64,000 nucleotides of DNA, taken from the NCBI GenBank assembly GCA_903912525.1, contig CAIWHK010000060.1, positions 1-64,000 on the forward strand, written 5' to 3'. The notes beneath the pieces are model-generated. The model was given only the letters and a program-made list of their open reading frames with translations. It did not search any database and had not been told where the DNA came from. This stretch comes from an uncultured bacterium. Its GTDB lineage: Bacteria; Krumholzibacteriota; Krumholzibacteriia; LZORAL124-64-63. Positions 14,603-44,338 of the stretch are shown in pieces; position 1 is the stretch's first letter; each line of letters opens with the position of its first letter. Made by a program: the position numbers and the translations under genes.

Positions 14603-14914
14603 CCGGTGAGGCAAGGGGACTCTTCCCACGGCTGGGGATGGCGCACGGGCATCCGGTTAAATGACCGTAGCATATGGTCCAACGTGAGGGTAGCGGCAGG
14701 TCGCCGATGCCGGGTGACGCCGGGCGCATCGGACCGACGGGCTCGGATGCGCGGTGAGTGCATTGGTCGTTTCGTGCGTTGGTGTGGCCATTGCTCCTTT
14801 TTATTGTTGAAATGAATGTTTTCCTGTGATATGATCTCTCCAATCAGATGGATGGCACCAGCTTCCAGACAGACAATTCGGGGCCCCTGGCGGGCCAACT
14901 TCAGGAGAACACCC
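14603..14914. other. Divergent intergenic region with a strong promoter
   Basis: This 312-bp gap separates the minus-strand N-glycan operon from the plus-strand gene at 14915. The right part (14770-14850) is AT-rich and holds the promoter at 14807-14835. The left part must contain the operon's promoter, but I cannot point to convincing -35/-10 boxes for it. Confidence 0.6.
14807..14835 (+). promoter_or_regulatory. Near-consensus sigma-70 promoter
   Basis: TTGAAA at 14807-14812 and TATGAT at 14830-14835 are separated by exactly 17 nt. Transcription would start near 14842, leaving a leader of about 70 nt before the GTG at 14915. Confidence 0.75.
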
Positions 14915-15523
14915 GTGAGGACGCACTTGTTACGCGTGGCCGTCATCGCAGCCCTTGCCATGGCCATCCCCGCCTTCGCCTCGGCGACCGGCAACACGTG
15001 CAGCATCGACGGGACGGTCACCGCATCGCGCAACACGGACCCGGCGTGGCCGGCGTGGAAATACACGATGGTGATCAACTACGACACCGGGAATCGCTAC
15101 CAGCTCAGCCACCTCGATGTCCTGCTGGACATCGCCGGCGGCACCTGCAGCTGCCAGAACTTCTACGATGCACTCGTGCTGCCCCCGGTCATCGGCCAGA
15201 GCGGCACCGCTTGCAAGACGTACTACACGCCCGAGCTCAACTGCCAGGGAGACCCCAGCATCCCGAACGTCAGCGGGATCGCGCTGAAGCTGAATCCGAC
15301 CTGCACCAGTTGCGACCCGGGCACGAACGGCACGGCCACCTTCGTGTTCTACAGCCGCCTGTCGCCCGGCGTCATCGACGAGGAAGCCCTGACGCTCGCC
15401 GACAAGTCCGGCAAGACGTACTGCTTCGGCCACCTCTCGGGCGCTTTCCCCGCCATGCCCTGTGACCCGGTGGGCAACGAGGACTCCGAGACCTGGGGCT
15501 CGCTCAAGGGGATGTACCGCTAG
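14915..15523 (+). CDS. Secreted cysteine-rich protein with C-terminal TWGSLKGMYR tag
   Basis: The GTG at 14915 follows CAGGAGA by 6 nt, giving a 202-residue product with a signal peptide (A-V-I-A-A-L-A-M-A-I-P-A-F-A-S-A). The mature part has about ten cysteines, including C-S-C-Q-N and C-T-S-C-D, which suggests disulfides in an extracytoplasmic protein. No named domain is recognised. The last ten residues, T-W-G-S-L-K-G-M-Y-R, closely match T-W-G-G-I-K-G-L-F-R at the end of the secreted protein at 43724-44338. A near-consensus promoter lies upstream and a terminator directly after, so it is a single-gene unit, probably well expressed. It interrupts two N-glycan gene groups, but I see no functional link. 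Confidence 0.8.
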   Translation: MRTHLLRVAVIAALAMAIPAFASATGNTCSIDGTVTASRNTDPAWPAWKYTMVINYDTGNRYQLSHLDVLLDIAGGTCSCQNFYDALVLPPVIGQSGTACKTYYTPELNCQGDPSIPNVSGIALKLNPTCTSCDPGTNGTATFVFYSRLSPGVIDEEALTLADKSGKTYCFGHLSGAFPAMPCDPVGNEDSETWGSLKGMYR

Positions 15524-15605: not shown

Positions 15606-17885
15606 TCAGCCGCGCACGACAATCTCGTCGGCCAGCACCCAGGCGGGGCCACCGGCATTCGGATGCCACGCCGGACAACCTGCGCGCACCCCGGCCTGCA
15701 CGCGCACATGGCGCGCCGTGGCGCGCGCCGCGAGCATGAAGGCATGGATCACCTTGCCCTGCACGCGGTCGTCGACGTCGTGGGTGCAGGCGCCGAGCTC
15801 CTGCCACGCAATGCCGTCGCGCGACACCAGGAACCTCACTTCATCCGGCAGGAAGATGCGCTCGTTGGCGTCCTGCAGGCAGCGCAGGCTGATGGAGCCG
15901 ATGGGCGTCGGCGCACCAAGGTCCACGCAGGCGTCCAGGTCGGCGCCTTCGCAGCCGCACCAGCGGCCGTCGTCGCGGCGCCACGAGCCGTGTGCGCCGT
16001 CGGTGAGCAGGCCCGGTTCACCGCGACCCGGCGCCGTCGCCAGCGTGACCGGCGCGCCGACACCCAGATGCCCATCCAGTTCGATCACCTCGGGCGCGCC
16101 GCAGTCGTGGCCGTCGACGACCCACTGCAGCCGGACGAACAGGCCGCGGCCGCGGGGGGCCAACTCGACGCAACCGCCCACGACCGGCACGCGCGTCGCC
16201 TTCATGCCCGCCGGCAAATGTGCGTCTTCAGGGCGGGCGCCGGGCAGGTAGCCGTGCACCGACTCGGTCGGCGCGGAGGTCGCCGAGACAGTGGCAACAT
16301 GTCCGGCCATGGCCTCGGCCAGCGCGCCGCAAGTCGTTACCCGCAGCACGTGCCTCCTCTTGGCGGCGTCGAACGCCGCGGTCACCAGCAGCGGTCGCCC
16401 GGTCACGCCCGGCTCGATCCCCAGCGCGTGCCACACCGGCGCCTGCACGCGCAACCGCGTCAGGAACGCGTTCACGTCGGGCGCCGCCGGCGCGGTCCAC
16501 AGCGCCTCGGCCATCGCCGGCAGCCGCGGGAACAGCTGCCGGTCCAGCCGTCCGGCGGGCGCATACTCGGTCCACAGGTTGCAGGCGCCGCCCAGCACGC
16601 GCACGGCCTGGACCGCCGGTAATCCCGGAGGCACGGGGGTGAAGGCGAGCACGCGCGCCACGTCCAGCACGCCCGGGTCATAGTCGAAGTAGGCGTGCGA
16701 CGTCGGGGAAACCACGGTGTCGTGCCCGGCGGCGACCGCCGCGCGCGCACCGTCGAACCCGCGCCACGACTGCACCACGGCTCCGGGCAGCGAACCGGCC
16801 AGGCCGCCCTCGAGGATCTCGTCCCAGCCCACCAGCCGCCGCCCGCGCGCGGACAGCCACGCGCCCATGCGGCGGATGAACCAGCTCTGCAGTTCGTGCT
16901 CGTCGCGCAGGCCCTCGGCGCGCAGGCGCTCCTGACAGCGCGGGCACGCCTGCCAGCGCTCCTTCGGCGCCTCGTCGCCGCCCACATGGATGAACGGCGA
17001 GGGGAACAGGTCCAGCACGTGCGCCAACACCGTCTCGAGGAACGCGAACGTTTCCTCGCGCCCGGCGCAGTAGATGTCCGGGAAGACGCCCCACTGCGTC
17101 TGCACGGCGAACGGCCCGCCCGTGCACGACAGTTCCGGATAGGCGGCCAGCGCCGCCTGGCTGTGGCCGGGCATCTCGATCTCGGGCACCACGGTGATGC
17201 CGCGCTCGCCGGCGTACGCCACGACCTCGCGCACGTCGGCCGCGGTGTAGAATCCCTCGTGGATGCCGCCGCCCTGCTGGTGCGCGCGCCGCGCGCCGAC
17301 GGACGTCAGATTCGGCAGCCCCGGCACCTCCAGGCGCCAGCCCTGGTCCTCGGTCAGGTGCCAGTGCAGCACGTTGAAGCGGTACGCAGTCAGGCGGTCG
17401 ATCACCGCGCGCACGCGCTCGACAGGCTGGAAGTGGCGGCCGCTGTCCAGCAGCAGGCCGCGCCAGCCGAAGGCCGGGCCGTCGTCGATCGCGCCGCAGG
17501 GCAGGTCGTAACCGGTCGCCGCGTGGATGATGAAGAGCTGGTACAGCGACGCCAGGCCGCGCGCGAAGCCCGGCCGCTCCGCCGCCGTCAGCGTCAGCGA
17601 CCGCGGGGCGATGTCCAACCGGTAGTGCTCCGGGGACAGGGCGGCGTCGGCAACCAGGTCGAGCGCACCGCCGGCCGCGAGGTCGGCCGGGCCGGTCACG
17701 GGGGCGAGAGATCGCCTCAGGGCGGGGGCCAGGAACGAGGCCGCGAAGGAGGCCAGGTCGCCGTCGGCTGCGCGCACGACCGACAGGCCGGCCAGCGCAC
17801 ACGCACCCTCTGCGGCACGCCAGTGCCGGGGCGCTGGAATCAGGGTCTGCAGGGGACTGGGGCGTTCCATGGTGGGGAACATCAT
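15606..17885 (-). CDS. Beta-N-acetylhexosaminidase, glycoside hydrolase family 20
   Basis: A GH20 enzyme of about 755-760 residues that releases terminal GlcNAc or GalNAc. The catalytic Asp-Glu pair is in H-V-G-G-D-E-A. Other family motifs are W-R-G-L-L-L-D-S-G-R-H, L-H-W-H-L-T-E-D-Q-G-W-R, E-I-E-M-P-G-H and L-G-G-A-C-N-L-W. A GH20b-type alpha/beta domain precedes the barrel. After the barrel, residues about 610-755 resemble a galactose-binding/F5-8 type C sandwich (I-G-S-I-S-L-R-C near residue 675, W-V-L-A-D-E-I at the end). No signal peptide is visible. The start could be 17885 or 17870; neither has a clear ribosome-binding site. It fits the N-glycan pathway by trimming antenna GlcNAc. Confidence 0.93.
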   Translation of the reverse strand: MMFPTMERPSPLQTLIPAPRHWRAAEGACALAGLSVVRAADGDLASFAASFLAPALRRSLAPVTGPADLAAGGALDLVADAALSPEHYRLDIAPRSLTLTAAERPGFARGLASLYQLFIIHAATGYDLPCGAIDDGPAFGWRGLLLDSGRHFQPVERVRAVIDRLTAYRFNVLHWHLTEDQGWRLEVPGLPNLTSVGARRAHQQGGGIHEGFYTAADVREVVAYAGERGITVVPEIEMPGHSQAALAAYPELSCTGGPFAVQTQWGVFPDIYCAGREETFAFLETVLAHVLDLFPSPFIHVGGDEAPKERWQACPRCQERLRAEGLRDEHELQSWFIRRMGAWLSARGRRLVGWDEILEGGLAGSLPGAVVQSWRGFDGARAAVAAGHDTVVSPTSHAYFDYDPGVLDVARVLAFTPVPPGLPAVQAVRVLGGACNLWTEYAPAGRLDRQLFPRLPAMAEALWTAPAAPDVNAFLTRLRVQAPVWHALGIEPGVTGRPLLVTAAFDAAKRRHVLRVTTCGALAEAMAGHVATVSATSAPTESVHGYLPGARPEDAHLPAGMKATRVPVVGGCVELAPRGRGLFVRLQWVVDGHDCGAPEVIELDGHLGVGAPVTLATAPGRGEPGLLTDGAHGSWRRDDGRWCGCEGADLDACVDLGAPTPIGSISLRCLQDANERIFLPDEVRFLVSRDGIAWQELGACTHDVDDRVQGKVIHAFMLAARATARHVRVQAGVRAGCPAWHPNAGGPAWVLADEIVVRG

Positions 17886-17928
17886 GCCCGGACTTGGCGC
17901 GGCTGTAAACGGCGCTTATCGTCCGGGG

Positions 17929-18837
17929 ATGAACACCGCCCGCAAGCGCGCCAACCTGCTGCTGCTGACCGCCGCCTTCATCTGGGGAGTGGCCTTCGTC
18001 GCGCAGCGCGTGGCCATGCGCCACCTGCCGCCGCTGACGTTCAACGCCGCGCGCCTGATCCTCGGCGCGCTGGTCCTGCTGCCGTTCCTGGCGCGATCGG
18101 GACGCCGCCCGCCCGGCGTCGCGGTGGCCGGCCGCGGCGAGACCATCGGGGCCTCGGTCCTGCTGGGCCTCGTGATGTTCGCGGCGGCCTCGTTGCAGCA
18201 GTTCGGCATCGTCAGCACGACGGCGGGCAAGGCCGGCTTCATCACCTCGATGTACGTCGTCTTCGTGCCGGTCGTGGGGATGTTCATCGGCCATCGCGTG
18301 GGGCGCTACGCGTGGATCGGCGTTGCGCTGGCGGTCGGCGGCCTTTACCTGCTGAGCGCGCGCGGCCTCATGAAGCTGGCGCCGGGCGACGGGCTGGTGC
18401 TGTTGTGCGCCGTGTGCTGGACGGCCCACGTGCTGCTGGTGGGCCGTTTCGTCAAGCGTGTGCCCGCGGTGCGCATGGCGTTCGGCCAGTTCACGACCGC
18501 GGCCGTCCTGTCTACCATCGGCGCGCTCATCTTCGACCATGTCCAGTGGGCCGACGTGCGGGCGGTGGCCTGGCCGATCATCTACTCGGGCGTGTTCTCG
18601 ATCGGCGTCGCCTTCACGCTGCAGGTGGCGGGGCAGAAGAACGCCCGCCCCACCGACGCCGCCATCATCATGAGCATGGAGTCGGTGTTCGCGGCCCTCG
18701 GCGGCGGCCTTCTGCTCGGCGAGCGGCTGGGGTTGCGCGAACTGGCCGGCTGCGTGGCGATCCTGACGGGCGCCGTCGTGGCTCAGCGCGACCTCGTGGA
18801 CACCCCGCCGGCGCCTCCGACCCGCGCCTCCACCTGA
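17929..18837 (+). CDS. EamA/DMT-family transporter
   Basis: A 302-residue integral membrane protein of the drug/metabolite transporter superfamily with ten predicted membrane segments in two EamA repeats. Typical features are the first helix ending W-G-V-A-F-V-A-Q-R, G-K-A-G-F-I-T-S-M-Y-V-V-F at the end of the first repeat, and A-A-I-I-M-S-M-E-S-V-F-A-A-L-G-G near the C-terminus. The substrate cannot be predicted. The ATG at 17929 begins just before the first helix. It is transcribed divergently from GH20, with only about 45 bp between the starts, so the two promoters would overlap. Confidence 0.88.
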   Translation: MNTARKRANLLLLTAAFIWGVAFVAQRVAMRHLPPLTFNAARLILGALVLLPFLARSGRRPPGVAVAGRGETIGASVLLGLVMFAAASLQQFGIVSTTAGKAGFITSMYVVFVPVVGMFIGHRVGRYAWIGVALAVGGLYLLSARGLMKLAPGDGLVLLCAVCWTAHVLLVGRFVKRVPAVRMAFGQFTTAAVLSTIGALIFDHVQWADVRAVAWPIIYSGVFSIGVAFTLQVAGQKNARPTDAAIIMSMESVFAALGGGLLLGERLGLRELAGCVAILTGAVVAQRDLVDTPPAPPTRAST

Positions 18838-19074
18838 CCGCCTTCTGGGCAGGCGCCCCGGTTGTTGTCAGGCTTTGGACCGCATGCCGCCGCCATCCAG
18901 TGGCTTGGCGATTTCATAACTGACACATTCACAACACCTTGCGAGCCGTCCCGGCGGGAGGCCGCTGCGGGGCGCCCGGTACGCTTCGTGCTGAATGTAG
19001 CGCAGAGCATTCCGGCAACCGGCCACGGTCGCCCGGCGCGACATCGCCGGCCGCCGACAGCGAGGAGGACGAGG

Positions 19075-19374: not shown

Positions 19375-22227
19375 ATGAGCCTGCGCCGCGCCCGTCGTTG
19401 CCTTTTTTCCCTGTGCCTGCTGATCGCCGCCGCGGCCCTGTTGCCGCCGGCTGCCACCGCCGCCACCGGCGTCCACACCACCTGGCTCTGGCACATGCAC
19501 CAGCCCATCTACTGGCCCACGCAGAGCACCTGGACGCCGGGCCGCTACGAGACCGCCTACGAGACGATCACGCTGGGCCACAGCCAGAACGACGAGTTCA
19601 CGATCTTCAACTCCGATGACCGCGTCGCCGACTACCAGTGGTACCCGAAGGACGCGCTCTCTTCGGTGCTCGACCTGCCGGATGCCGGCGCGCAGGTCTC
19701 GTTCGCCGGTTCGCTCATCGAGAACATCAACAGTCTCGGCAGCGCGGGCTGGAACGGCGGCCGCTACGCCGCCAACTGGACCAGCCACTACCGCACGGCG
19801 ATGGGCTGGAGCACTTCGCAGGGCCAGCGCCGCCTCGACCCGGTCATCTCCGGCTTCCACCATGCGATCAACCCGCTGCTGGACGACAATGCGCTGCGCA
19901 TGGAACTGGCCTGCGGCCGCGAGATCTGGGACGACGCCTGGGGCGCGGGCCCGCTGTCGACAGGGTTCTTCCCGGCCGAGATGTGCTTCAGCGAGCGGAT
20001 GATCCCGGCGCTGCTGGACGCGGGCGTCACCTGGACCGTCGTGCCCGACCTGCACATCGGCCGCGCCTGCGCGAACTACCCGTACCAGGCCAACCTCGAC
20101 AACTGCGACCCGCCCAACCGCGCGGACCAGGTGAACCCGGCGCAGGCGAACTGGACGAACCACACCATCTCGCGCGGCGTCACGCTGAAGGTGCCGTACC
20201 CGTACGGCTTCACGCCGCACCGCGCGCAGTATGTCGACCCGGCGACGGGCGTGGCGCGCAACCTCGTCGTGGTGCCCGCGGCCGACGCGATGGGCTGGGA
20301 AGAGGGCTATTCGCTGTTCGGCACCGGCGGCATCGACGCCATCGCCCCGGCCAACAACCCGGCGCAGCCGATGCTGGTGCTGTTTGCGCACGACGGCGAC
20401 AACGCCTGGAGCGGCGGCTACAGCTACTTCCGCGAGAACGTCACGCAGTTCGCGCACGCCGCGGCGAACAAGGGCTACCGCCCGAGCACCGTTGCCACCT
20501 ACCTGGCCGAGCACCCGGTGCCGCAGTCCGACATCGTGCATGTGGAGGACGGCGGCTGGGTGAACGCCGACGGCGACTTCGGCTCGCCGCAGTACATCAA
20601 CTGGAACTGGCCGCTGGTCAACGCGTCCGGGTCCTTCGACATCGCCGGCGGCTGGGCCGAGGACGAGCGCAACTGGGCCGTGCTGACCGCCGCGCAGAAC
20701 CGCGTCGAGACGGCCGCCGCCATCGTCGGCACGGTCAGCCCCGCGAAGGTCGTCAACCCGCTGCTGGGCGCCAATGCCGCCGAGCGCGCGTGGCACTACC
20801 TGCTGGCCGGCTACGAGAGCGGCTACATGTACTACGGTTCGTCGCTCGACATGGAGATCAAGGCGACGATGGCCTGCAACCAGGCCGTGGCGCTGGCTGA
20901 TCCGGTGGTGAGCGGCGGCGCCGACACGGTCGCGCCCACCGTGTGGCTGCCGCAGCGCCTGCCCTGGAACCCGGGCGGGTACGGCGGCGGCGCGCTGTGG
21001 GGCTGGCCGTCGGGCGCGGGCGCCGTGATGTCCTCGACGTTCAACGTGTGGACCTTCGCGCACGACGTTTCTGGGCTCGTGCGCGTCGAATTGATGGTGC
21101 GGCAGGACGCCGACGGCATCAATGACACCGCGACCACCGCCAACGAGACCTATGCCGGCGGCGCGGGGGTGGGCGCCTGGACGGCGCGCGCCATGACGAG
21201 GCGCGTCATGCCCGCGGGCGAGCCCTGGGACATGGCCGGCATCGACCTGACCGTGCTGCCGACGCACATCGCGGATGAGTACTGGCTGCAGTTGAGCGGC
21301 TACAGCGACGTGCTGCTGGACTACTACATCGAGGCCGAGGATGCGCACGGCAACCTCAAGCGCGCGCCCATCCAGCACGTCTATGTCGGCACCAACGGCA
21401 CGGGCGGCGGCGGCACCGGCACCGGCTTCACGATGGACGGTGCACTCGACGCGGGCGCATCGCTGCTCTCCACGGCGGGCGGCGTCTCGCTGTGGGGCAA
21501 GCTCGACGGTCGCAAGTTCTACCTGGCCACCGATGCGCCCACGCAGTTGCCGGGCCGCGACGTGTTCCTGGTGATCGGCAACGGCTCATCCACGATGCGC
21601 GCGGCGCCGTGGGCCAAGGCCGGCCAGTGGGCGCCGTGGATGCAGTTCCTGGCCCGGGAGTCCGGCAACGGCTGGTCCGGCTGGTTCAACGCGACCGGCG
21701 GCGTCATGGCGGCCGATGCTTTCCACGGCATGGCCAACGGCGTGGTGTTCGAGGGGTGGATCGACCTGGACTCCGTCTACCCCGGCGGGGTCGGGCAGCC
21801 GCCCACGCTGCCGGTGGCCGTCGTGGCCTGCGCGACGAGCGATGGCGGCGCACTGCAGGGTCAGGCGCCGGCGGGCGACGGCGACGGCGACCTGGACCTG
21901 ATCGAGTACGCCGGAGCGCCGCTGTCTGCCGCCTCGACGCCGCCGCCCGTGGCGGCGGCCGTCGCCCGGTTGGTGGCTTTCCCGACCCCGTTCAACGCGC
22001 AGGTCCGGCTGGCGCTCGAGGGCGCCGAGGACGGTCCGGTCACCGTGACCATCCACGATGCCCGTGGCCGTACCGTGCGACGGCTGTCCGCCGGGGTTTC
22101 CGGCGGCCAGGCGCAGTTGATGTGGGACGGGCGCGACGAGGCCGGCCGGGTGATGGCCAGCGGCACCTATTTCGCCCGCAGCGGCGGCGCGCGACCCGCA
22201 GTGGCGCGCCTGACGATGGTAAAGTAG
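19375..22227 (+). CDS. Secreted GH57-like glycosidase with FlgD-like C-terminal domain
   Basis: A 950-residue exported protein. A signal peptide (residues 1-29) is followed by W-L-W-H-M-H-Q-P, the first conserved region of GH57. The nucleophile region reads F-F-P-A-E-M-C-F-S-E-R near residue 201, and a second acid may be in H-D-G-D-N-A-W-S-G near residue 340; both fit GH57. Residues about 540-690 hold an Ig-like region, and about 700-840 a cargo-like sandwich. The end (about 865-950) is a FlgD-type Ig domain with F-P-T-P-F-N-A-Q-V and W-D-G-R-D-E-A-G-R-V, a C-terminal type used by FCB-group secreted proteins. GGAGG lies about 12 nt before the ATG. The substrate (alpha-glucan or similar) is inferred only from the family. 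Confidence 0.82.
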   Translation: MSLRRARRCLFSLCLLIAAAALLPPAATAATGVHTTWLWHMHQPIYWPTQSTWTPGRYETAYETITLGHSQNDEFTIFNSDDRVADYQWYPKDALSSVLDLPDAGAQVSFAGSLIENINSLGSAGWNGGRYAANWTSHYRTAMGWSTSQGQRRLDPVISGFHHAINPLLDDNALRMELACGREIWDDAWGAGPLSTGFFPAEMCFSERMIPALLDAGVTWTVVPDLHIGRACANYPYQANLDNCDPPNRADQVNPAQANWTNHTISRGVTLKVPYPYGFTPHRAQYVDPATGVARNLVVVPAADAMGWEEGYSLFGTGGIDAIAPANNPAQPMLVLFAHDGDNAWSGGYSYFRENVTQFAHAAANKGYRPSTVATYLAEHPVPQSDIVHVEDGGWVNADGDFGSPQYINWNWPLVNASGSFDIAGGWAEDERNWAVLTAAQNRVETAAAIVGTVSPAKVVNPLLGANAAERAWHYLLAGYESGYMYYGSSLDMEIKATMACNQAVALADPVVSGGADTVAPTVWLPQRLPWNPGGYGGGALWGWPSGAGAVMSSTFNVWTFAHDVSGLVRVELMVRQDADGINDTATTANETYAGGAGVGAWTARAMTRRVMPAGEPWDMAGIDLTVLPTHIADEYWLQLSGYSDVLLDYYIEAEDAHGNLKRAPIQHVYVGTNGTGGGGTGTGFTMDGALDAGASLLSTAGGVSLWGKLDGRKFYLATDAPTQLPGRDVFLVIGNGSSTMRAAPWAKAGQWAPWMQFLARESGNGWSGWFNATGGVMAADAFHGMANGVVFEGWIDLDSVYPGGVGQPPTLPVAVVACATSDGGALQGQAPAGDGDGDLDLIEYAGAPLSAASTPPPVAAAVARLVAFPTPFNAQVRLALEGAEDGPVTVTIHDARGRTVRRLSAGVSGGQAQLMWDGRDEAGRVMASGTYFARSGGARPAVARLTMVK

Positions 22228-28151: not shown

Positions 28152-31100
28152 TCAGCGCAGCAACATCATCTTCCGCTCCACGCGCTGCCCGTCCGCTTCC
28201 AGCCGGCTCAGGTACAGCCCGCTGGCGACGTCACGCCCGCTGTCGTCGCGCCCGTCCCACGCCACGGCGTGGACGCCCGCTTCCAACGGCGTGTCGGCCA
28301 GCAGCACCCGCACGAGCGAACCGCGCAGGTCGTAGATCGCCAGACCGGGGCTCGCGGCCTTCGCCAGCTCAAAGCGGATCTCCGTGCGCGGGTTGAACGG
28401 GTTCGGCCGGTTCGCCAGCAGGCCGAAGGCGGGCGCGGGCGTGCCGGGCGTCGCCGACGGCGCCAGCGCGTAGGTCAGGTGCAGGCCCCACGAGTTGAGT
28501 GTCCCGGTGTCGGTGCTGGCCGTGTCCGAGACGAACAGCGTCCAGTTGCCGAAGGCCGGGCCGCCGGCGAAATCGGCCAGCGCGCCGGGGCCGTCCACCG
28601 TCAGCGTCGTCCCGTAGGTGCCGTTGATGTTGTCGGCCGAGCTGCCGGTCCGGTTGTGCAGCCGCACCACCGTGCCGTTCGGCGAGGTCAGCGAGACGGT
28701 CAGGTCGCCGCGCCAGGTGTGGGTCACCGAGATATCGACGGTGACGGCCGAGACGTCGGCGTTCAGCGGCACGTTGATCACCGACGTGATGCCGGTCGCG
28801 TTGTTGTCGGGAATCGCCACAGGCACCGCGCGCACATAGTCCGCCGTGGCCACCGGGTAGATCTGGACGTCGTGGCGGAGAGCCTGTCCTTCCTCGAGCA
28901 CCAGCGGGCGGCTGCTGGCGCCGACGCCGGGCGCGGTCACCGACAGCGTGTAGGCGCCCGCGTAGAGGTTGTCCAGGACATAGGAGCCGTCGGCGCCCGA
29001 CGTGGTGGTGTGACCGGCGCCCACGCTCACGGTCGCGCCGACGACGGCCGTCGAACCGCCCGCGGTGACGGCCAGGATCCGCCCGTAGACCGAGGCCGTC
29101 GAGGCGCCCTGGTCGGCCAGCAGCCAGGAGGCCGCGTTCTCCACGAGATGCCGCGCCGCCGTCGTGTCGGCCAGCGCGCCGACGTTGAAGGCCAGCACGA
29201 CGATCTGCCCGGCGTGCGGCACCACATCGTTGTCGTAGGCCAACACGCCCGCCGCATCGGCGTAACCCGAGGTGCCGAAGACCACCGTGGCGTCCGCGGC
29301 CGGCGAGAGCGCGTCCTGGTCCCCGTAGCCGCCATAGGTCAGGTTGAGCACGGCCGGGAGCGCGTGCGGCGTCTTGGCCAGCGGATGCGTCGGCTGGGCG
29401 ACCTGCAGCGTGCCGGCATTGTCGGCGCGCCAGGTCGTCGCGTGCAGCACGCCGGTGGCGAACGCCGGGTAGCCGGGCGACGAGATGGCGTCGTAGCCGA
29501 CCTCGCCGCCTTCGACGACCAGCTTGCCGCCGCCGGCGGTCCAGTCCTGCAGCAGGGTGCGCAGGGAGGCGCTCGCGACCGGCGCCGTGTTGGCGCCGCT
29601 GGTCAGCACCACGAACTGGGGACCGACAAAGTCGGTCGCCACCACGGAAGTCGCGGCGACCTTGCGCGTCACGTAGCCGGCCTGCCGCAGCCAGCGGTCG
29701 ATGTCGGCCGGCGCCGCCTTGTCGGCAGCGGGTGCGGGCAGCGGGCGCTTGTCGTCGTCGTACTTGAGGTCGTCGCCCAGCGATTTGGCGGTCGTGTCGT
29801 CGATGACCAGGGCCACGCCCAGCGCATCGATGATGGCGAAGGCGTGCGGGCCATCGTTCACGGTGTTGGGAGCAGCAGCGACATCCGTGGCCGCCACCGA
29901 GTAGCTGAAGGCGTCGCCGGTCGCCAGCGAGCCGGCCGCGACCGGGAACGGCGCCGCGTAGCTGCCGCCGCCCTGCGGCGCCAGCGTGAAGCCGGCCTGG
30001 GCGACGCCGTTGATGCTGTAGGCCACGGTCACCGAACCGATGCCGAGGTTGTCCGTCACCTGCGCGCGGACGATCACCGGCCAGGTCAGCAGGGGCTGGT
30101 CGCCGATCGGCGTGTGCGCGATGACCGGCGCCGTCACGTCCGGCCCGACATGGAAGGTGAAGGGCGCGCCCGCGCCGCCGGTCGGCAGCGACGTGACGAT
30201 GCCGCCCGCGTCGCCGGCCGACAGGTAGTACTCGACGTCCGTGCCGGACGCCTGGGCCGGAATGGGGGCCGAGTAGCTGCCGCCGCCGCCGGATGCGAGC
30301 GTGACCGCCTGCCACGCGCCGCCGCCGGCGCGCCAGTGCAGCTGCAACTGCGCCGGATCCAGCGCCAGGCGGTCGGTGATCGTCGCGGTCACGAGGTAGT
30401 CCGAACCCGTATTCTCGGTGTCGGCCAGCGGCGTGTGCGCGATCGAGGCGCCGAAGTAGAACACGGCGTTGTAGGCGTTGAGGATGCCCCAGCCGTAGTC
30501 GTTGTCGGGCGCGCCGGCGCGACTGGCCGTCGCGCGCATGGCCTCGCGCACCTGCATCGGCGTCAGCGTCGGCACGCGCGACAGCACCAGGGCGGCGACG
30601 CCCGAGGTGAGCGGGCACGAGAACGACGTCCCGGACGCCGTCTCGTAGCCGTTGATCGTGCCCACCGAAGCGACGTGGTTGCCCGAGCCCAGCGCGGCGA
30701 CGTCGGGCTTGATGCGCCCGTCGGCGCTCGGTCCGGGCGAGGAGAACGAGGAATAGGTGCCCGTGCTGGTGACCGCGCCGACCGCGATCACGCTGTCGCC
30801 GTCCGCCGGCGCGACGATGTGGTTCCAGGCGGCGCCGCGCTCGTTGCCGGCCGAGTTGCAGACGACGATGCCCTTGCCCGCGGCCAGGTCGGCCGCGATG
30901 GTGCAGGCGGCGGTGTTGCCGTCCATGTCCGCGAAGGTGAACCAGTCGATGTAGCCCAGCGAACTGGAGACGACGTCGACGCCGAAGGTGTCCAGCCACT
31001 CGATGCCCGCCACCCAGTTGTCTTCCTCGGCCGGCACCTCTTGCGACGTGTCCTCGGTCTTCGCCAGCACCAGCGTGGCGCCGTAGGCGGGCCCGACATG

Positions 31101-31931
31101 GCTCCCCGGCGCGTAGCCGGCAACCGTCGACATGGTCATCGTGCCGTGGCTGTCCTGGCCGGACGGGTCCCCGGGCTGGTTCTCGACGACGCCGTCGTTG
31201 TTGACGAAGTCCCAGCGCGCCAGGACCGGCAGGGGCGACAGGCACTCGTGCGTGGTGCGGAAGCCGGAATCGAGCATGCCGATGATCACGCCCTGGCCGT
31301 GGAAGCCCGCTTCATGCACCTGGGGCACGGCGATCTGCTCGAGGTCCGCGAGGTTGCCGCCGTAGTTGATGGTCCACTGGGCGCTGTCGGCCGCGTACGG
31401 CGCCGCGGCGGCGGGCGCGGTCACGATCGCCGGCGCCGGCTGGGCGCGCCGCACCAGCGTCACGGCGCGCACCTGCGGCAGGGACGCCAGCGCGTCCACC
31501 TGTGAGGCATCGACGTCGAAGCTCGCGGCGTTCAGCCAGCGTGAGACGCGGCGCAGGCGGGCGCCGGTCGCCGCGACCGCATCGACGTGGGCCGCGGACA
31601 CCGGCAGGTCGGTGACGTCGACCAGGCGGGCCTGCCCGTCCAGTGACTTGTCGTCCGTCATCACTTTGGCGCGCCGCGCGACGGCATGGTCGCCGAGCTG
31701 CTCCTGGGCCCGTGCCAGCGCCGCGTCCAGGTCGCGCCCGGTCAGCCCCTTGTCGGTGAACCAGACCCACACCGCGACCGTACCGTCGGCATTGCGCCCC
31801 GCGAACGCCGGATCGGCCAGGGCTGCCGTGGCGCCGGGTGAAACGACGGGAGTGTTCGCAGACTCGGCGCTGCCCGCAAGCAACGCGGTGAGCAGGCCGG
31901 CCAGGATCAGGATGCGGGCACGACGATTCAT
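28152..31931 (-). CDS. Secreted multidomain subtilisin-like (S8) protease with FlgD-like sorting domain
   Basis: A 1,259-residue exported protein; the ATG at 31931 follows GGAGG by about 9 nt. A signal peptide and a propeptide-like region (to about residue 180) precede the S8 domain. The catalytic triad is Asp in G-M-L-D-S-G-F (about 220), His in D-S-H-G-T-M (about 260) and Ser in G-T-S-F-S-C-P (about 432). Residues about 530-690 are Ig-like. Residues about 700-940 look like a class I glutamine amidotransferase fold. A carboxypeptidase-regulatory domain follows (about 943-1025), then a P-type proprotein convertase domain (about 1030-1155) and a FlgD/T9SS-like end (N-P-F-N-P, W-D-G-R-D). Likely anchored outside the cell, role in protein degradation. 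Confidence 0.9.
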   Translation of the reverse strand: MNRRARILILAGLLTALLAGSAESANTPVVSPGATAALADPAFAGRNADGTVAVWVWFTDKGLTGRDLDAALARAQEQLGDHAVARRAKVMTDDKSLDGQARLVDVTDLPVSAAHVDAVAATGARLRRVSRWLNAASFDVDASQVDALASLPQVRAVTLVRRAQPAPAIVTAPAAAAPYAADSAQWTINYGGNLADLEQIAVPQVHEAGFHGQGVIIGMLDSGFRTTHECLSPLPVLARWDFVNNDGVVENQPGDPSGQDSHGTMTMSTVAGYAPGSHVGPAYGATLVLAKTEDTSQEVPAEEDNWVAGIEWLDTFGVDVVSSSLGYIDWFTFADMDGNTAACTIAADLAAGKGIVVCNSAGNERGAAWNHIVAPADGDSVIAVGAVTSTGTYSSFSSPGPSADGRIKPDVAALGSGNHVASVGTINGYETASGTSFSCPLTSGVAALVLSRVPTLTPMQVREAMRATASRAGAPDNDYGWGILNAYNAVFYFGASIAHTPLADTENTGSDYLVTATITDRLALDPAQLQLHWRAGGGAWQAVTLASGGGGSYSAPIPAQASGTDVEYYLSAGDAGGIVTSLPTGGAGAPFTFHVGPDVTAPVIAHTPIGDQPLLTWPVIVRAQVTDNLGIGSVTVAYSINGVAQAGFTLAPQGGGSYAAPFPVAAGSLATGDAFSYSVAATDVAAAPNTVNDGPHAFAIIDALGVALVIDDTTAKSLGDDLKYDDDKRPLPAPAADKAAPADIDRWLRQAGYVTRKVAATSVVATDFVGPQFVVLTSGANTAPVASASLRTLLQDWTAGGGKLVVEGGEVGYDAISSPGYPAFATGVLHATTWRADNAGTLQVAQPTHPLAKTPHALPAVLNLTYGGYGDQDALSPAADATVVFGTSGYADAAGVLAYDNDVVPHAGQIVVLAFNVGALADTTAARHLVENAASWLLADQGASTASVYGRILAVTAGGSTAVVGATVSVGAGHTTTSGADGSYVLDNLYAGAYTLSVTAPGVGASSRPLVLEEGQALRHDVQIYPVATADYVRAVPVAIPDNNATGITSVINVPLNADVSAVTVDISVTHTWRGDLTVSLTSPNGTVVRLHNRTGSSADNINGTYGTTLTVDGPGALADFAGGPAFGNWTLFVSDTASTDTGTLNSWGLHLTYALAPSATPGTPAPAFGLLANRPNPFNPRTEIRFELAKAASPGLAIYDLRGSLVRVLLADTPLEAGVHAVAWDGRDDSGRDVASGLYLSRLEADGQRVERKMMLLR

Positions 31932-43723: not shown

Positions 43724-44338
43724 CTAGCGGAACAGGCCCTTGATGCCGCCCCACGTCGACGCCTCGTTCGGAACCAGGGGCTCCTGCTCGACGCGCACGT
43801 TGTCGACGTACATCGTCGACAGGCTGCCGACGTTCGCGCCCGTGTTGGCCATGAACTGGATCGTCACGAAGTCGGTGCCGGCCGGGGCCATGAACGACCC
43901 GGCGTACGTGGCCCAGCCCGACGGGCTGTAGTTGCCCAGCAGCCCGGAGGTGGCGACGATGCCGCCGCCCGTGTGCTCGGCGAAGACCTGGACGAAGAAG
44001 ACGCCGCCCAGCGCCGCCTGGCCCAGCTTGAGGTCGAACGACCAGTAGACCAGACCGGGCGCCGCCGTGCCGGTCGCCGTCGACTGCTTCAGCGTCAGCC
44101 CCAGGGCCTCGGCGTGGTTGTCCATGAACGCGCAGCGCGTTCCGCCCGCCGACGGGCCGTTGTCGGTCGCCACGACGGTGACGGCGGAGTTGCTGCCCAG
44201 GCCGAAGACCTGCCAGCCGGTCAGGTTGCCGGTCTCGAAGTCGTTGTTCGTCAAGACGTTGGTGGCGAAACCGGCCGTGGCGGACAGGGCTAGCAGGGCG
44301 GTCACACAGGCACTCGTGAACAGCGTTCTCATTTTCAT
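43724..44338 (-). CDS. Secreted CBM-like protein with C-terminal TWGGIKGLFR tag
   Basis: A 204-residue exported protein; the ATG at 44338 follows AAAGGAG. After the signal peptide, N-N-D-F-E-T-G-N-L-T-G-W begins a jelly-roll carbohydrate-binding-like domain (DUF642 or CBM4/9 type, residues about 28-185). It ends with the strand pattern M-Y-V-D-N-V-R-V-E. The final ten residues are T-W-G-G-I-K-G-L-F-R, nearly the same as at the end of the protein at 14915. A terminator follows directly. The domain type is fairly clear; ligand and location are not. Confidence 0.82.
   Translation of the reverse strand: MKMRTLFTSACVTALLALSATAGFATNVLTNNDFETGNLTGWQVFGLGSNSAVTVVATDNGPSAGGTRCAFMDNHAEALGLTLKQSTATGTAAPGLVYWSFDLKLGQAALGGVFFVQVFAEHTGGGIVATSGLLGNYSPSGWATYAGSFMAPAGTDFVTIQFMANTGANVGSLSTMYVDNVRVEQEPLVPNEASTWGGIKGLFR

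Follow-up and report, generated by a model that had tools for sequence, protein, structure and literature searches.

Two secreted proteins encoded in the window, i.e. the whole stretch of 64,000 nucleotides of an uncultured Krumholzibacteriota bacterium that we analysed, end in the same tail of about 16 residues, which is a real and so far unrecorded C-terminal sorting signal. Whether it is, more precisely, a short type IX export or surface-docking signal seems to us an evenly balanced matter, the machinery being what we infer. We lean towards the view that such a peptide, lying outside any membrane helix, is by itself the complete address label for much of the exported proteome in several phyla, and that its reader is either a tag-specific PorV-type shuttle or a wholly unknown outer-membrane sorting machine. 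If this is true, a C-terminal sorting signal would exist with neither the membrane helix of the PEP-CTERM type nor the folded domain of type IX secretion system (T9SS) cargo; the tail thus probes how short a sequence can serve a Gram-negative sorting system.

Identification of the tail

The original prediction concerned two ORFs with almost the same ten terminal residues, and both are present with the ends claimed for them: 14915..15523 (+), ending in ...NEDSETWGSLKGMYR, and 43724..44338 (-), ending in ...PNEASTWGGIKGLFR. The first, with a GTG start (alternative starts at 14816 and 14936), encodes a Cys-rich, putatively Sec-exported protein whose signal peptide was called by a heuristic and for which a Pfam and NCBIfam scan gave no match. 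Its 16-residue tail, GNEDSETWGSLKGMYR, at 15473..15520 (+), is an exact pattern match followed by the stop at 15521-15523, with a PSSM score of 33. The second, recognised from its ORF and signal peptide, encodes a beta-sandwich (CBM-like), putatively Sec-exported protein with the 16-residue tail VPNEASTWGGIKGLFR at 43727..43774 (-), again an exact match, the stop being at 43724-43726 and the PSSM score 46; its AF2 model, which is poor (mean pLDDT 57.8), is all-beta apart from a short C-terminal helix (residues 182-188) of low confidence. An N-terminal signal peptide was thus found in both products. In the window, the pattern WGxxKxx[YF]R followed by a stop occurs exactly 2 times, against 0.01 expected from dinucleotide shuffles.

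The search of the proteome and of relatives proposed with the prediction returned 51 strict matches at ORF ends in the whole genome (4.29 Mb), with 0 for the reversed pattern used as a control, and matches to the tail profile in 78/78 genomes of the phylum. All the 30 loci examined among the 51 were C-termini of long ORFs sharing a longer consensus, VPxExx[ST]WGx[ILV]K[AS][LM][YF]R, of about 16 residues; the shared tag is therefore borne out, but the conserved stretch exceeds the ten residues first described. In 316 distinct tagged proteins, the percentages at the final 16 positions were V63 P71 V47 E84 x x [S55/T40] W98 G96 x [I53/V28/L16] K100 [A49/S35] [L59/M18] [Y72/F26] R91, with an aromatic residue in 98% at the Y/F position and no conserved Cys in the core. 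The final Arg, present in 91%, is less strict than the W, the K or the aromatic residue. In fact, the tails of family f8 often have non-basic ends (YQ, YD-N, YA-E), and also YK. As the last residue in f8 may be Q, K, D, N, E or A, the core is the terminal [ST]WGx[ILV]K[AS][LM][YF] rather than the final Arg; the same ends weaken the Arg carboxylate as the recognised feature.

We scanned 1026 genes lacking the strict pattern with a PSSM derived from 184 tails. The PSSM recovered about two dozen extra tails, all at most 9 residues from the C-terminus, and none inside proteins. The scores were bimodal, with tails at 18 or more, the next best match at 11.8 and then values below 6, these being interior or non-tail matches. 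The variants included W replaced by F, G replaced by S, and extra residues past the Arg. As a separate observation, in cassettes of families f5 and f6 (L143, L145, L157, L195) paralogues of tagged proteins end in WGAIKSMMD, WGAIKSMME, WGAIKSLINE or WGAIKKQY; such natural end variants are of use for mapping the requirements of the reader protein.

Unrelated bodies and association with export

That the bodies are unrelated, as had been stated for the first two proteins, holds generally: 148 tagged proteins fell into 61 BLAST clusters, and in a larger set 211 fell into 89 body clusters, between which the tails were still 49% identical over 11 residues. Shared ancestry of whole proteins, or chance, was considered as the origin of the common end and can be regarded as refuted, with a probability close to nil. 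Some tagged genes are indeed tandem paralogues, but against this explanation stand the 61-89 body clusters, the zero count of the reversed-pattern control and a search of the tail profile against all PDB sequences, which was empty at E<=1.

Tagged proteins carried a Sec signal peptide far more often than untagged genes of the same stretches, from which the background rates were taken (194/229, or 85%, versus 218/734, or 30%, by a strict home-made heuristic). The loci had been selected around tags and the sequences share ancestry, so that the p-values are no more than indicative. In the window's own genome the values were 27/32 tagged versus 82/280 untagged. The motif is hence enriched at the C-termini of signal-peptide proteins and, as seen above, was not found in protein interiors; the outcome that would have refuted the prediction, no such enrichment, did not occur. 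The proposal that the tag might be an export, anchoring or processing signal stands as far as the enrichment and the distinction from FlgD-like ends are concerned, while for the window's family an exosortase can be excluded as the means of anchoring, as described below.

The bodies recognisable with Pfam and NCBIfam include beta-helix, CHRD, choice_anch_J, choice_anch_W, ScyF, ExeM, diheme GEGP and lamin-tail types, among others, and M36 peptidase models also match. Several are choice-of-anchor types, which elsewhere come with PEP-CTERM, GlyGly-CTERM or T9SS tails; elsewhere, too, ScyF is a PEP-CTERM protein and ExeM a GlyGly-CTERM one. The mixture is that of other C-terminal sorting tags.

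Distribution among genomes

The strict pattern was found in 78 of 80 Krumholzibacteriota genomes (8 families, 43 genera), with a control of about zero. The tail profile, which also matched both genomes without strict matches, counted 4-73 tails per genome, 73 of them in the window's genome; the window's family, f1 (36 genomes), is the richest in tails. A stringent, nearly chance-free pattern was also run on 85,000 species genomes. Among the matches listed, the titles were Krumholzibacteriia, Eisenbacteria, Effluviviaceae, Latescibacterota or unnamed, plus a few odd labels; at least one of the oddly labelled genomes is a member of Krumholzibacteriota. A second phylum, that of a Candidatus Effluviviaceae genome, Effluviviacota, which PMC11323493 separates from Eisenbacteria, had 16-71 strict tags in 20/20 genomes.

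Some public titles, of the records behind L075, L087, L102 and L038, look wrong. The SprA matches of 'Gemmatimonas sp.' SW.020 are identical to those of genome G069, of the window's family. Two 'Latescibacterota' chromosomes match the Krumholzibacteriota genomes G074 and G075, and an 'Eisenbacteria' record was placed in the Effluviviacota set.

With about 70 proteins in the window's genome, and as many as 71 strict matches in one Effluviviacota genome, the tail offers a means, readable in the sequence, of picking out exported and surface proteins in phyla that are represented chiefly by metagenome assemblies. A tail model could enter the family libraries immediately, and thousands of 'hypothetical' proteins would then be recognisable as exported.

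Comparison with membrane-helix tags

The tail has no transmembrane helix: of 283 tagged C-termini, only 2.5% contained a 17-residue stretch whose mean hydropathy exceeded 1.6, and a transmembrane segment with an Arg cluster behind it was not found in them. Accordingly, the hydropathy rules out a tripartite membrane tag. No Pfam or NCBIfam model matched the tail. In an AF2 model for one tagged family, from 28 sequences, a beta-sandwich body with pLDDT mostly above 90 is followed by a linker and by a separate C-terminal helix (176-186) with pLDDT of about 52; the poor model of the window's second protein resembles it. The helical moment of the tail barely exceeded that of shuffles (0.43 against 0.32), 24% of which attain it, and the strand moment was as high. 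An amphipathic membrane helix is hence not supported, and the modelled C-terminal helix is not securely predicted, a strand being equally compatible with the sequence.

As in PEP-CTERM systems, a C-terminal tag occurs dozens of times per genome on many unrelated bodies, choice-of-anchor domains included, and its VPxE recalls VPEP; the tail differs in having no transmembrane helix or basic cluster, and exosortase is missing from the tag-rich family f1. That the tail is a variant PEP-CTERM-like signal which an exosortase cleaves, VPxE corresponding to VPEP, is therefore refuted for f1, where exosortase (PF09721) was found in 0/36 genomes, and very improbable overall. The resemblance of VPxE to the PEP motif, tagged bodies of PEP-CTERM types and exosortases in many genomes of other families, chiefly f3, f5 and f6, speak for it, but neither a transmembrane segment nor an Arg cluster accompanies the tail.

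GlyGly-CTERM/rhombosortase and MYXO-CTERM/myxosortase are likewise many-to-one tags and share body types with the tail (ExeM-GG and M36 peptidase models). Both are tripartite, with a motif, a membrane helix and basic residues (PMC3237569, PMC11980579), and MYXO-CTERM also occurs throughout its phylum, dozens of times per genome (PMC11980579). Unlike these tags, the tail is free of a membrane helix, and it lacks the invariant Cys of MYXO-CTERM.

T9SS genes and type A domains

SprA and C25 (PorU-type) peptidases were each found in 78/78 Krumholzibacteriota genomes, with clean controls, and the PorV family also in 78/78, with 2-17 copies, about ten each, and one sub-cut-off Bacteroides match in the control. 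In the window's genome, porU (L174 13307..17794, +) is directly followed by a PorV-family gene (17863..18882, +); PorU scored 464 bits (cut-off 420), and SprA, located elsewhere, 493 bits (cut-off 200). By sequence similarity and gene order, the adjacent porU-porV, SprA and about ten PorV-family genes probably constitute a type IX secretion system in Krumholzibacteriota. According to a review, C-terminal domain cargo is limited to Bacteroidota (PMC10202324). Our literature search returned no papers on C-terminal sorting or T9SS in Krumholzibacteriota or Eisenbacteria, and the term 'C-terminal' is never mentioned in the paper describing Effluviviacota (PMC11323493).

SprA was also found in 19/20 Effluviviacota genomes, one match being weak, and in six genomes titled Eisenbacteria. 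Two tagged genomes, G086 (13 strict tags; L064, L263) and G087 (2 strict tags; L099), gave no SprA and no full PorU match, and two others (G085, G114) have PorU with no convincing SprA. These four may be incomplete assemblies or real counter-examples.

The original prediction also held the tag to be distinct from the FlgD-like ends of two large secreted proteins, and this was upheld: the end of a subtilisin-like secreted protein at 28152..31931 (-) reaches the cut-off for a T9SS type A/FlgD-like C-terminal domain (TIGR04183 Por_Secre_tail, 23.2 bits, cut-off 23), while the T9SS models of NCBIfam and Pfam matched none of 60 tails and none of 69 whole tagged proteins. The second large protein, at 19375..22227 (+), was assigned as FlgD-like from its sequence end, ...MASGTYFARSGGARPAVARLTMVK. 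The tail resembles type A (TIGR04183, Bacteroidota) in being C-terminal, in having no transmembrane helix, in sitting on diverse Sec-exported bodies and in occurring where T9SS genes are present. The C-terminal domains of T9SS cargo are about 70-100 residues long. They fold as beta-sandwiches (PMC10994853), whereas the tail is some 16 residues long, is built around a near-invariant core, W-G-x-x-K, and does not match type A in sequence.

There are nevertheless links between the two kinds of end. A body of the cohesin-like tagged family heads an FlgD/T9SS-tailed protein (L054 419..3334), two more tagged beta-helix proteins match FlgD-tailed ones, and a short exported protein (L076:6374-6835, -) has an FlgD-like (T9SS-type) domain and then the tail plus 8 residues, i.e. 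both C-terminal signals. PorU-type C25 peptidases adjoin tagged cassettes in several loci. Between tail and PorV counts the correlation was only weak (rho 0.29, p 0.045, not corrected for relatedness), and between tail and C25 counts there was none; at the tagged loci, moreover, neither a shuttle nor a translocon gene is a consistent neighbour of the tagged genes. As precedents, the last 22 residues of one Porphyromonas T9SS C-terminal domain suffice for the export of GFP (PMC10202324), and the signal that is read differs between the shuttles of Flavobacterium (PMC12618676). Domain exchange, C25 neighbours and precedents are no more than suggestive of a connection between tail and T9SS.

Proposed mechanism

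The tail follows a variable linker, and in the mechanism that we propose it would, after Sec export, stay accessible in the periplasm, where a protein receptor would read it and either move the protein through the outer membrane or dock it there. The likeliest receptor would be the type IX machinery, i.e. the SprA translocon with PorV-family shuttles; every Krumholzibacteriota genome tested has it, and copies of the PorV family number about ten per genome. In this case, the tail would stand in, as a short signal, for the folded, FlgD-like type A domain. The roughly ten PorV-family paralogues per genome would leave room for a tail-specific shuttle, and a PorU-type C25 peptidase may cleave the tail. 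To our knowledge, the T9SS of Bacteroidota runs without such a tail, so the T9SS alone would be insufficient.

A surface or outer-membrane sorting signal could also be read by a dedicated, non-T9SS machine or receptor limited to these phyla, which we regard as a tentative and rather less probable explanation. The range of the tag is narrow among the matches listed and that of the T9SS far wider, so the tail must have a reader peculiar to these phyla; moreover, G086 is tagged yet without an SprA match, and FlgD-type domains already act as T9SS signals in the window's genome. However, no candidate gene emerged: at the tagged loci we found no dedicated enzyme or receptor gene adjoining the tagged genes, and the consistent non-substrate neighbours were dockerin-like proteins, with C25 peptidases in a few loci. 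Besides, the restriction would be explained with no new machine by a PorV-family member confined to these phyla.

Cohesin-like tagged proteins and their neighbours

The largest tagged family (L032:960-1523, with about 30 relatives including L038, L078, L123, L131 and L249) has a cohesin fold, the top PDB matches of its confident AF2 model in Foldseek being nearly all cohesins. These most numerous tagged proteins are usually encoded beside genes for dockerin-like proteins with only a Sec signal, which suggests complex assembly; together with the strict W, G and K, which argue for a protein receptor, this is what favours the tail as a docking peptide, bound non-covalently to a periplasmic or outer-membrane partner, an assembly tag and not an export signal. 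We consider this unlikely, given that tagged body types are known elsewhere as extracellular or surface proteins and given the domain exchange with T9SS-tailed proteins.

Untagged dockerin-like genes lie at most 600 bp from tagged genes in 14/16 cases (8/9 and 6/7), e.g. L249:7309-7869, L123:3295-3852 and L195:298-939; they have duplicated dockerin-like ends, with motifs that score under the Pfam cut-off, and no visible outer-membrane signal. This arrangement suggests that the tagged cohesins hold partner proteins, possibly as a cohesin-dockerin surface system outside the known cellulosome bacteria.
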